Below are positions 58,303-62,449 of a stretch of DNA of 64,000 bases, one piece after another (within the stretch, counting starts at the first letter, position 1; every line of letters begins with the position of its first letter). Position numbers and translations under genes: made by a program. The notes beneath the pieces are model-generated. The model was not told the origin of the DNA, ran no database searches, and saw nothing but the letters and a program-made list of their open reading frames with translations. The stretch spans positions 64,001 to 128,000 of the IMG/VR virus record IMGVR_UViG_3300042922_000542, one strand, 5' to 3'. The stretch is from a virus.

Positions 58303-58440
58303 ATGTGGATCACCCCACTCTCTATATCATTATTTTTTAATAAAATTAACGAAAATGCACACAATTATATTTGTATATTAGTAAAATATATAATTATTAT
58401 TTAACAATAATTATCATATCGTATATCATGATTTATCATC

Positions 58441-58450
58441 TATATATTAT
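58441..58450 (+). promoter_or_regulatory. candidate phage promoter motif
   Basis: An exact TATATATTAT lies 33 bases before the ATG at 58484. Confidence 0.55.
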
Positions 58451-58483
58451 TATATTATCAATAATGTAAAGGAGATTAATTTA

Positions 58484-58714
58484 ATGAAAAACGAAAAATC
58501 TGTTGAATTAACTACGATGGCAATAATAATGATAAAAGCAATCATTTGTGAATCAGATGGAAAAAGAAGAAAGGATGCTATAATTAGAACTATTATTCGT
58601 AAATCTGATAGTTTATCTAATATAGCTGAAGTTAAATATTGTAATCATAAATTTAAATTCCTAGTGCGTGATTATAATACTCATCGATTAATTGACTTCG
58701 ATCCACGAATATAA
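58484..58714 (+). CDS. small unknown protein
   Basis: This protein has 76 residues and starts after AAAGGAGA. It begins MKNEKSVELTTMAIIMIKAI and is basic in the second half. It has no recognised motif. It has its own promoter motif and is followed 13 bases later by a hairpin terminator, so it is a single-gene unit. Confidence 0.65.
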   Translation: MKNEKSVELTTMAIIMIKAIICESDGKRRKDAIIRTIIRKSDSLSNIAEVKYCNHKFKFLVRDYNTHRLIDFDPRI

Positions 58715-58727
58715 TATATCATTATAT

Positions 58728-58766
58728 AATAGAATATTATAATAATATTCTATTTTTTTATTTTTT
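58728..58766 (+). terminator. terminator before structured RNA
   Basis: A perfect 12-bp stem, AATAGAATATTA with TAATATTCTATT, has a TAA loop and a long T run. It separates the small gene from the downstream RNA region. Confidence 0.85.
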
Positions 58767-58794
58767 TAAATATTAATTAAATATACATATATAG

Positions 58795-59420
58795 ATAATA
58801 AAAGAAATTAATTAAGATGGATTGCGCGATGAAACTTTCTTTTATTATATTCTAAGGACATAGAATTGAAATCTATTGCGATTATAAATGAAATGGTAAA
58901 CCTGCGTACCTCCTCAGATGTATATGCGCTATAAGATTGATTTCATGGGATCATTTAAATGAATGTCCAGACATGCTGCTACTGTAATGAACCGATTGAT
59001 TCACAATATGTTCACCTCCCAGTGTTTAATCATATTAATTAGTGAGCAGCTTATAAGCAATCCGTTAACGTATATGGAATTATTTCTGTATATAAGGATG
59101 ACTAGTAGATACATTCAGATTTATCTACTTCCTGACTATATTGCCGATATGTCAAGGATCAATATAATGAGATCGAGCATAGATATAATGATAAATCCAT
59201 TTGTTGCTACCTGTAGGCACAGGAGAGTGCGAAGAACATAATGGTCAAATAATGATTATAGAGATTCAGGGTAACTGGGTGAAGGGTAGGTAATAGTTGA
59301 CCAACTAACAATGTCATGACTATTGTGTAGATCTCCATAATCATAAGAGTTGTTTCCTTTTATTAAGTGTTTTATACAAAAAAATAGATAGGGGGTGATG
59401 AACCCCCTATCTATTTTTAT
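58795..59420 (+). ncRNA. candidate large structured non-coding RNA, about 630 nt
   Basis: Between two terminators lie more than 600 bases without a credible gene but full of pairing. A perfect 13-bp stem joins 58795-58807 to 58836-58848. Hairpins ATTCTA/TAGAAT (58849-58866) and AGTAGATA/TATCTACT (59104-59129) are local. Longer stems are ATGAAAT/ATTTCAT (58888-58946), GCTGCTACT with AGTGAGCAGC (58975-59050), and a 12-bp stem with one mismatch (59254-59265 with 59331-59342). CCTGT/ACAGG closes 59210-59223. The size and phage setting recall the large ornate RNA classes ROOL and GOLLD. Class membership cannot be decided without a covariance-model search. The upstream AT-rich stretch could hold its promoter. 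Confidence 0.65.
59378..59420. terminator. bidirectional terminator at RNA 3-prime end
   Basis: A 15-bp stem, AAAATAGATAGGGGG with CCCCCTATCTATTTT, has the loop TGATGAA. It can end the RNA on the plus strand and the convergent gene on the minus strand. Confidence 0.88.
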
Positions 59421-59437
59421 TTGTATTTTACTATGTA

Positions 59438-60052
59438 TTATAATAATTTATTTAAACCCCATTGGTGAAAATTATAATTATTAAATGTTCCAGCGAAAAC
59501 GAAAGGTGTACCATCGTTAAAATAACGCAATGTTGCACGTGACACATCAAGATCCGGATATTCTCTTATGAATATTTCAGCCTCGACATCATTTAATCTT
59601 AATGGCTTGTATTTAGCACGTGGAATACGCCTTCTTAATTGACGTGCATTCATTGTTTCATACCCATTAATCTTAAATCGTTTAGCTACAATACGTAAAT
59701 GATCTAGCGTCATATCGTTTAAATGTAGTCTACATAACTGAGCATACAATATTTCTTCAGTAGTTGATGCAATTTCAGACTTAATATTAGAATTATTATT
59801 CATTGTAGTTCCTTCTATGATATCAACTATTGATTCGAGTGTGCGTACAGTATTTTTTATATCTTTAATTAATCGTCGCTCATTATTATGTTCAACTATT
59901 TTATTTAATTCCTTCGTGGTATTATTTAACTCATCACATATATCACGAATTTGCATGATGTTACATTGATAACTATCAGGTTCAAATTGACGTATTTTAT
60001 CCTCATTAGAACCGAATTGACCATATTTGCTGCTCAACACAATTTTTTCCAT
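59438..60052 (-). CDS. unknown protein with SAP/Rho-N-like segment
   Basis: This protein has 204 residues and its ATG is preceded by ATGGAGGAT. The first 75 residues are coiled-coil-like. Residues 115-145 (LDHLRIVAKRFKINGYETMN followed by ARQLRRRIPR) fit the helix-extended-helix pattern of SAP or Rho N-terminal domains, which bind nucleic acids. A promoter motif lies 39 bases upstream of the ATG. The overall function is unknown. Confidence 0.68.
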   Translation of the reverse strand: MEKIVLSSKYGQFGSNEDKIRQFEPDSYQCNIMQIRDICDELNNTTKELNKIVEHNNERRLIKDIKNTVRTLESIVDIIEGTTMNNNSNIKSEIASTTEEILYAQLCRLHLNDMTLDHLRIVAKRFKINGYETMNARQLRRRIPRAKYKPLRLNDVEAEIFIREYPDLDVSRATLRYFNDGTPFVFAGTFNNYNFHQWGLNKLL

Positions 60053-60379: not shown

Positions 60380-61225
60380 CGTTCTATTCACATAAGTTCG
60401 CAACACCTATGCAGTTCTCTTATGAACTTCCCTAACTTTCATTAGGATACTAGACTATATCTTTACTCTACTGAATTAGAGTACATCTCGTTTCCCATTA
60501 CTCTACTATCTTGAAAATAGCAGCCTGTCATTGGCTTACAGGGGTACTCCCATTACTGGGATAGTCGTTGAGGCTGATTCATAATATTAATTGAATTTAT
60601 AATAACTCTGGTAAATTATTATATCTTCGTAATTATTCTGGTAAATTACTATCTGCTTCCCCTAGCGATGTCCCATTCTAAATTGTTTACGTTGTTATTG
60701 GTCTTGTTCCCGTCTATATGACGAACACAAATCCATCCTTCTGGATTAGGGATAAATGTTCTGGCTACTAATTGATGAACTCTGATCTTATGTATAACTC
60801 CTTTGTGTTCAAGTATTACATACAAGGAACCATTTCGGTTGCTACATTGGTCTAATGACTTTCCTGTTATCTTGTCCTTTACATCACCATTTGTACTGAC
60901 TCTATATTGGGATCTCTTACCCTGTAGGTATATATCCCTCCATGATGTTTTATTTTTACCCATTAAGCAATTTATCATTTCTATACCCTCATTTATATTT
61001 TTTACCAGATAATATTTAATATTAATATTATGAAGCTTGCCTGCGGATTTGCAATATATCCTTAACATTTTTACTATACCTTAGGAATTACCCCTTGCCA
61101 TTATAACATCACTGTTATTATTTAGTAGTTAAGGCTTTATGCATCCAATTATCAATTTATAATAATCAGATAGAGTTCAAGTAACTCTGGTCCCCGCATA
61201 TATGAGATGATCGGCGACTCATTCC
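60380..61225 (-). mobile_element. group I intron with HNH endonuclease
   Basis: This is an 846-base insertion inside the RNA polymerase gene. The conserved core is visible on the minus strand: an R-type string CAACGACTA (60570-60562) and an S-type string AAGATATAGTCT (60463-60452) form P7 through GACTA/TAGTC. A 3-prime stem (TTCATAAG with CTTATGTGAA) precedes the splice site. The 5-prime site follows a T (61226), and the exon end GACGGT can pair with GTCGCC just inside the intron to give P1 with a U-G pair. The intron ends in G (60380). No clear P10 was found. Free-standing reading frames inside it include the HNH gene. Confidence 0.8.
60649..60978 (-). CDS. HNH homing endonuclease (NUMOD4 plus HNH)
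   Basis: I chose the ATG at 60978, preceded by TGAGGGT. The protein has 109 residues. An N-terminal NUMOD4 pattern, WRDIYLQGKRSQYRVSTNGD, is followed by an HNH module, VHQLVARTFIPNP...VRHIDGNKTNNNVNNLEW. Such enzymes cut intron-less alleles and drive intron spread. The C-terminus stops soon after NLEW, so it is at the short end for the family. It lies inside the intron, away from the core. Confidence 0.82.
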   Translation of the reverse strand: MINCLMGKNKTSWRDIYLQGKRSQYRVSTNGDVKDKITGKSLDQCSNRNGSLYVILEHKGVIHKIRVHQLVARTFIPNPEGWICVRHIDGNKTNNNVNNLEWDIARGSR

Positions 61226-62449
61226 ACCGTCAAAATCGGCATTCAGTCCAGGAAGTATACCAGATGGAATTGATAATGTCATATCATCGCTATCAATTTT
61301 GACATTACGAATTTTCATCTTTAATATACTACCAAACGTTATTGTCGGATTTCTATTAATTATTTTCCAAGGCTTATATTTTTTAAGTACTAATTGTATT
61401 ATCGAATATATGTATTCATCATATTGAAATTTAGATTTTAAATAATTATGGGCCTTTGTAATAGTCCATCCCCTATCATTCATTATCTCCCTGATGATTT
61501 TTCCTGAATATAAAACAATAAATGTTTTATATGACACATCAATTTCATCCAATTTGAGTGTCGGGTCTAGTACGATTACATTTCTGCCCGTATAGTTAAA
61601 CTGTCCACCTAATACGTTTGCTCTAGCCCATCCATGTTTACCATCGATGAGTGAGAAATTTAAATTCCATAATTCATTGACTCTTTGCTGAGCAGAGTAT
61701 AAGTATAATGGAACTTCTATAGGTGAAGCTGTTTTAAGATTTAATGTAATTGCTGTTAATGGATGCACGTGCTTGTCAATAGGACTGAAATAATATGATT
61801 CTGTAGTAATTCCCTGTGGACGTAATACTGTGCTATACACAGGTATTTTAGATGTCCATAGAGAATCTTTCTCCGCAATTAATGAATCAATTAAATCAGC
61901 CTTCATTTTTCTCTTCTGTCGATAATATAACATAATTTCTTCAAAGTTTTGATAGAACTCATTCAATCCAATATTATGATATTTTAACATTGATTTTTTA
62001 ACTTCGATATCATCACCGTACTTACGTATTACACCAGTAGATGTTATGATATTATCATTAGCGATTATATTCTCCAAATTCTTCTTACTTAAAGCGGATT
62101 GTAGTTTTTGATAATAATATGGATTTATTACTTTATACGGATAGAAGTTTAGCCATCCTGTATACAAAATATCCACATCGGTGTATTCTATCTTTGTATT
62201 ACACTCTGGACATATTTCACCCTCAAGTATAGCTCCGATGTAATGACCGCACTTGCATCTATACCTATCTGAAAATTCATTATTATCGCCATATGTAGTT
62301 CCATATAAGGGTGAGCGTGGCCCACCCATATTTCGTATAGATTTGTCGATATCACTAAACGGTTTATCCGTTATTAAGAAGCCTTTATCATTCATGATAT
62401 CATAGTAACATTCTGTCTCAAAGTTGATTCTTGAAAATTTCATTCGCAT
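61226..62449 (-). CDS. RNA polymerase beta-prime N-terminal subunit, exon 1
   Basis: The ATG at 62449 is preceded by AAGGAGA. Exon 1 has 408 codons. A zinc site, C65KC67 with C80PEC83, lies near the N-terminus. The switch-region pattern GKHGWARANVLGGQFNYTGR and VIVLDPTLKLDEI matches the beta-prime stretch with R..L.GKRVD.SGRSVI..GP.L. NPTITFGSILKMKI and PGLNADFDG (ending at residue 408) lead into the catalytic metal-binding loop. Without splicing the frame would run 18 codons further to a stop and lose the third Asp. It is a phage multisubunit-type polymerase component. Other subunits are not in the window. Confidence 0.85.

Follow-up and report, generated by a model that had tools for sequence, protein, structure and literature searches.

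A long gene-free region of an AR9/phiKZ-type jumbo phage as a plausible, unproven orphan RNA

Introduction

For large phage RNAs of the ROOL and GOLLD kind, to our knowledge, the shapes are known, that of ROOL being an octameric nanocage, and the jobs are not. Their usual setting is a tRNA cluster (PMC12286853). A different kind of noncoding RNA, RNAIII of Staphylococcus, represses mRNAs by placing C-rich loops on their ribosome-binding sites (PMC2837412). In AT-rich genomes, structured RNAs have been sought through a published signature, long intergenic regions that are rich in GC (PMC8632094). Here we analyse such a region in a window of 64,000 nt, which corresponds to bases 64001-128000 of a virus record of 246,147 bases; positions are those of the window unless another record is named. 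A sequence-only reading of this window had proposed that it encodes a large, ornate phage RNA. We confirm the gene-free region, which stands out in this genome; the large ornate RNA is unproven, the region being a plausible orphan RNA.

Results

The phage and its relatives

The N-terminal part of RNA polymerase beta' is encoded at 61166-62449 and shares just 26-30% identity with Yersinia phage phiR1-37, AR9/PBS1 and phiKZ-like phages. From these matches, the virus is placed among the AR9/phiKZ-type jumbo phages, which have a multisubunit RNA polymerase, at a distance from all those that are named. Searches via RNA polymerase genes led to nine distinct records of related phages (G001-G006, G008, G009 and G012), which were compared whole, and the proteins that they have in common with this phage are mostly 30-65% identical. 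Coding sequence fills 94% of the tightly packed genome, and the whole 246-kb record has no tRNA gene.

Several features of these phages were recorded in passing. The beta' gene is split by a group I intron that carries a gene for a NUMOD4/HNH endonuclease (60407-61165, minus strand); the intron is inserted at the catalytic NADFDGD motif and scores 42.7 bits, the Rfam gathering score being 50 bits; the same gene bears further interruptions in relatives G002, G003 and others. A related 292-kb phage carries a tRNA cluster (G006:45000-47240; L074:5000-7240) in which some tRNA genes are apparently split by intron-like inserts. In another relative, a sequence of about 105 nt occurs in two nearly identical copies (G003:67380-68127; L020:7380-8127). 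Wherever these differ within the aligned block, one of them has an A, a pattern characteristic of the template/variable pair of a diversity-generating retroelement.

The region is noncoding and GC-elevated

The genome has no gene-free stretch longer than 58715-59437. With a dicodon model that was trained on the long ORFs of this same genome, no coding signal is found on either strand over 955 nt (58600-59554), the longest run without one anywhere in the 246 kb, and stop-masked scoring recovered a consistent signal in no frame, unlike the neighbouring gene at 59438-60052. A 92-aa ORF (58963-59241) has a negative dicodon score where its real neighbours are strongly positive; no ribosome-binding site lies ahead of it, and searches that included viral contigs returned no relatives. 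Read-through frames gave nothing above shuffles in six-frame searches of PHROGs, in six-frame BLAST against the ORFs of the relatives or, for the three plus-strand frames, in Pfam. The earlier statement that the region has no credible ORF is borne out by these results. A pseudogene was also considered and is unsupported by the read-through profile searches.

The core of the region (Table 1) is richer in GC than the median intergenic region (22.3%) and than the genes (30.7%). The neighbouring group I intron is equally GC-elevated (242 nt, 33%).

Table 1. Features of the gene-free region and its upstream gene, in window coordinates
Feature	Position	Strand	Remarks
AR9-type early (virion RNA polymerase) promoter, putative, ATCTATATATTAT	58438-58450	+	predicted start near 58457
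76-aa protein gene ahead of the putative RNA	58484-58714	+	dicodon score 69.9; ribosome-binding site
Weak AU-rich hairpin and U tract, possible leaky terminator	58730-58759	+	-6.0 kcal/mol
Core of the putative RNA, free of genes and GC-elevated	58791-59372	+	dicodon noncoding; GC 34.1% for 58816-59372
5' arm of predicted end-closing helix (partner 59348-59365)	58796-58813	+	pair probability 0.73
5' domain, closed by GATGGATTGC / GCAATCCGTT, 10 bp	58816-59066	+	pair probability 0.97
Perfect 13-bp stem, 3' arm (5' arm 58795-58807), alternative to closing helix	58836-58848	+	
First anti-Shine-Dalgarno-like element, ACCUCCU	58908-58914	+	only UCC predicted unpaired
Second anti-Shine-Dalgarno-like element, UCACCUCCC	59012-59020	+	core predicted unpaired 0.7-1.0
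3' domain, closed by GAGATC / GATCTC	59169-59335	+	predicted fold
3' arm of predicted end-closing helix	59348-59365	+	predicted fold
Strong bidirectional intrinsic terminator, common to convergent gene 59438-60052 (-)	59381-59417	both	-24.8 kcal/mol, z about -8

Helices and folding energy

The perfect 13-bp stem named by the sequence-only reading is present (58795-58807/58836-58848) and lies beyond chance, since none of 300 shuffles reached 13 bp. Its sequence is rare genome-wide, and the idea of a repeated promoter element was rejected. The second stem of that reading, given as 12 bp over more than 70 bases, also exists, but it has arms of 14 nt with one mismatch that lie 65 nt apart (59252-59265/59331-59344) and would form an alternative pairing at the 3' domain. 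In the predicted fold, the 5' domain is closed by 58816-58825/59057-59066, the 3' domain by 59169-59174/59330-59335, and the ends of the RNA are joined by an AU-rich helix of 16 pairs. This end-to-end duplex is no better than chance, being matched by 20% of shuffles. The 5' bases 58796-58807 could enter either the end-closing helix or the local 13-bp stem, since TTTCTTTTATTA is found again at 58836 and, altered at one position, at 59354.

When the terminator is included, the region folds with z = -3.8, a value that is terminator-driven and was discarded as evidence of structure. Once the terminator is removed, the plus strand has z = -1.2, a level reached by 25 of 200 shuffles, and the minus strand z = -1.6. 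These are ordinary values against shuffles and do not support the description as highly paired, nor does folding energy bear out the word ornate. Real group I introns of these phages give z from -1.1 to -2.8 and coding windows -0.5 +/- 1.4. Since the z of the region overlaps both ranges, folding energy neither proves nor excludes a structured RNA here.

Other gene-free regions of these phages look structured. One of about 950 nt, found in a relative of 289 kb next to a gene for a helicase-like protein (G003:29690-30640; L018:9690-10640), has many strong helices, one of them about 23 bp, and no Rfam match, and it folds much better than its shuffles, with a z of -4.6 without its end hairpin; it is a better candidate for an ornate RNA than 58795-59420. 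A second orphan region, in the same genome as the window (G000:210577-210925; L051:10577-10925), spans about 350 nt including a terminator, adjoins the homologous helicase-like gene and has a z of -2.6 without the terminator.

Promoters, terminators and the transcript unit

AR9 early promoters are described as AAATATATATTAT-N6-G and late ones as AACA-N6-TA/G (PMC5312081). A de novo EM promoter search in this genome returned only ribosome-binding sites and terminators, and the published AR9 motif was used instead. Genome-wide, TATATATTAT is enriched upstream of genes: there are 25 sites in the sense orientation where shuffles give 3.4, and most of them lie 20-60 nt ahead of a start codon. Because of this enrichment, virion-polymerase promoters are recognisable by sequence in this divergent family. 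Among the early motif sites are those at 58438-58450 (plus strand) and 58383-58395 (minus strand) of the window. The 76-aa protein encoded downstream of the former has no relatives in protein searches. No plus-strand early motif of comparable score was found before or within the putative RNA, and no AR9-type late motif, AACA-N6-TR, at 58700-58900.

Of the two strong terminators said to flank the region, only that on the downstream side is strong; the upstream one is a weak hairpin (58730-58752) of almost all A-U pairs followed by a U tract. Because an early promoter precedes the 76-aa gene and none precedes the putative RNA, the region is perhaps the 3' part of a transcript of about 0.96 kb, and the simplest reading may be a single early transcript that combines the small ORF with a noncoding part of about 650 nt. 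The noncoding region with its predicted helices is there, but the promoter analysis suggests that it may belong to the 3' part of an early mRNA and not be the free-standing RNA of about 0.6 kb envisaged earlier, and the RNA unit may extend upstream to take in the 76-aa gene.

Two anti-Shine-Dalgarno-like elements

ACCUCC elements are complementary to ribosome-binding sites and match the tail of bacterial 16S rRNA. The region carries two sense-strand copies of ACCTCC, as many as in 0.04% of 5000 shuffles (P = 4e-4, post hoc). Five intergenic copies exist genome-wide outside the ribosome-binding sites of called genes; by inspection, two of these look like sites for uncalled small ORFs and one lies in a terminator-like hairpin, leaving the two of the region. 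In the predicted fold the second copy is open and the first is half paired. No specific phage mRNA stands out as a target, since the duplexes predicted between the elements and ribosome-binding sites of this phage are no stronger than those with flank-shuffled controls. By analogy with RNAIII, the two elements, which were noticed post hoc, suggest translational control.

Searches for homologues and RNA families

BLASTN against phages and plasmids gave no match. Exact-motif scans returned only chance matches in coding regions for three motifs in viral contigs, and none for one motif in species genomes; the collections searched for homologues may omit close relatives of this record. The nine related phage records yielded no homologue by BLAST or nhmmer, and single-sequence covariance models of both domains, run over 1.55 Mb of related phage, found only the region itself. 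Neighbouring proteins used as queries, viral contigs included, had no relatives among those tested. The syntenic region in relative G003, read directly, is occupied by ordinary genes.

Rfam 15, including OLE, HEARO and raiA, gave only low-scoring, mostly terminator-driven chance matches at gathering and permissive thresholds. The scan is sensitive enough for an intron, because the neighbouring group I intron was detected with the same settings (42.7 bits, E = 2e-9). The ROOL model (RF03087) had no match at E<=10 over 901 nt in the permissive scan, and none genome-wide in 10 records; it also found none in 14 control genomes, which thus provide no positive control. The GOLLD model (RF02032) matched neither the 901-nt scan nor the ten records, its five control matches all being below the family cut-off. 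The sequence-only reading could not assign the RNA to a family, which stands with no Rfam family matched, and the membership in ROOL or GOLLD that it had considered finds no covariance-model match.

Discussion

That the region encodes a functional RNA is a fair hypothesis, with the odds about even. The specific reading that we prefer, at a rough probability of 0.27, is that 58715-59420 is a noncoding region forming the long 3' part of an early transcript, with CU-rich elements that repress translation. It builds on the absence of coding signal, the GC elevation, the strong terminator, the upstream promoter motif and the two ACCUCC elements, all of which were computed. From there we infer a single transcript that would start at the virion-polymerase-type promoter, cross the 76-aa gene, read through the weak hairpin and end at the strong terminator. 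Its untranslated part of about 650 nt would fold into the 5' and 3' domains, and the AU-rich helix would hold the ends together in competition with the local 13-bp hairpin. The elements ACCUCCU (58908) and UCACCUCCC (59012) would then act in trans, pairing with the ribosome-binding sites of target mRNAs and lowering their translation as RNAIII does. We count in favour of this mRNA-tail model the longest gene-free stretch, the GC content, the promoter, the terminator, the 13-bp stem and the two ACCTCC copies. Against it stand the ordinary folding energy, a closing helix at chance level, the lack of a homologue and duplexes no stronger than controls; the anti-Shine-Dalgarno point, in addition, is post hoc, and one copy is half paired.

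It is quite possible, if short of probable, that the region is a spacer with no function, derived from a gene in decay or from DNA that was acquired, and now no more than a long 3' untranslated region whose structure is not under selection. In favour of this reading, the region folds no better than shuffles, has a GC content near the coding average, lacks relatives, lies in a neighbourhood that is not conserved in related phages and contains a few peptide-like stretches in different frames. However, stop-masked dicodon scores leave no residual coding frame, and the read-through searches of Pfam, PHROGs and BLAST did no better than shuffles. The GC content exceeds even the coding average, the 13-bp stem is perfect, and a useless stretch of this length would be unusual in a genome that is 94% coding.

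We consider it doubtful that the region is a free-standing large phage RNA, a scaffold or particle resembling ROOL or GOLLD, transcribed from an unrecognised promoter of its own at about 58760-58795. The size of about 580-650 nt, the ends that pair just before the strong terminator, the possible weak terminator upstream and the GC elevation would all suit such an RNA. However, neither this record nor the nine related ones contains a ROOL or GOLLD match, no early or AR9-type late promoter motif lies in front, the genome has no tRNA cluster, and the folding statistics are plain.

Several unrecognised very small protein genes are very unlikely to account for the region. ORFs of 92, 45, 37 and 30 aa exist mechanically and, by inspection, GGGAGGUGA lies ahead of a short minus-strand ORF that begins with GTG and has about 17 codons, but dicodon scores are negative or marginal, no relatives were found, and the 92-aa ORF has no ribosome-binding site. 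Least credible is a relic of a mobile intron, be it a degenerate group I intron or a homing element. Group I introns are abundant in these phages, with one 1 kb away, but the Rfam settings that find this neighbour give no intron match here, and flanking exons are absent.

The preferred reading of an early mRNA with a regulatory tail would, if extended, define a new class: a large jumbo-phage early RNA made by the injected virion polymerase, in which a small protein gene is followed by a long structured 3' part that mimics the 3' end of 16S rRNA (UCACCUCC) and steers translation at the onset of infection. We regard this as a long shot. An orphan candidate with a recognisable early promoter and complementarity to ribosome-binding sites, in a jumbo phage that uses its own polymerases for transcription, nevertheless amounts to a concrete hypothesis. 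What the evidence shows at present is limited to one significant stem in a long noncoding region that is rich in GC, and the importance of this region is conditional on that hypothesis.

Compared with known systems, the region, known from sequence only, differs from ROOL RNA in having no covariance-model match and no tRNA cluster; like ROOL, it is phage-encoded, of similar length and predicted to have a long-range closing helix before a terminator. GOLLD is likewise a large noncoding phage RNA, but the region is shorter, matches no GOLLD covariance model and has no tRNA nearby. With the group I introns of the same phages it shares the GC elevation in an AT-rich phage genome, in contrast to their intron core, their exons on either side and their Rfam match, none of which it has. 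Staphylococcus aureus RNAIII, a regulatory RNA of about 0.5 kb, has no sequence relation to it and a different ORF, and the CU-rich elements here are only partly exposed in the predicted fold. The likeness lies in these CU-rich elements, of which there are two here, in what would be the long noncoding part after a small ORF; RNAIII itself reportedly also carries a small ORF.
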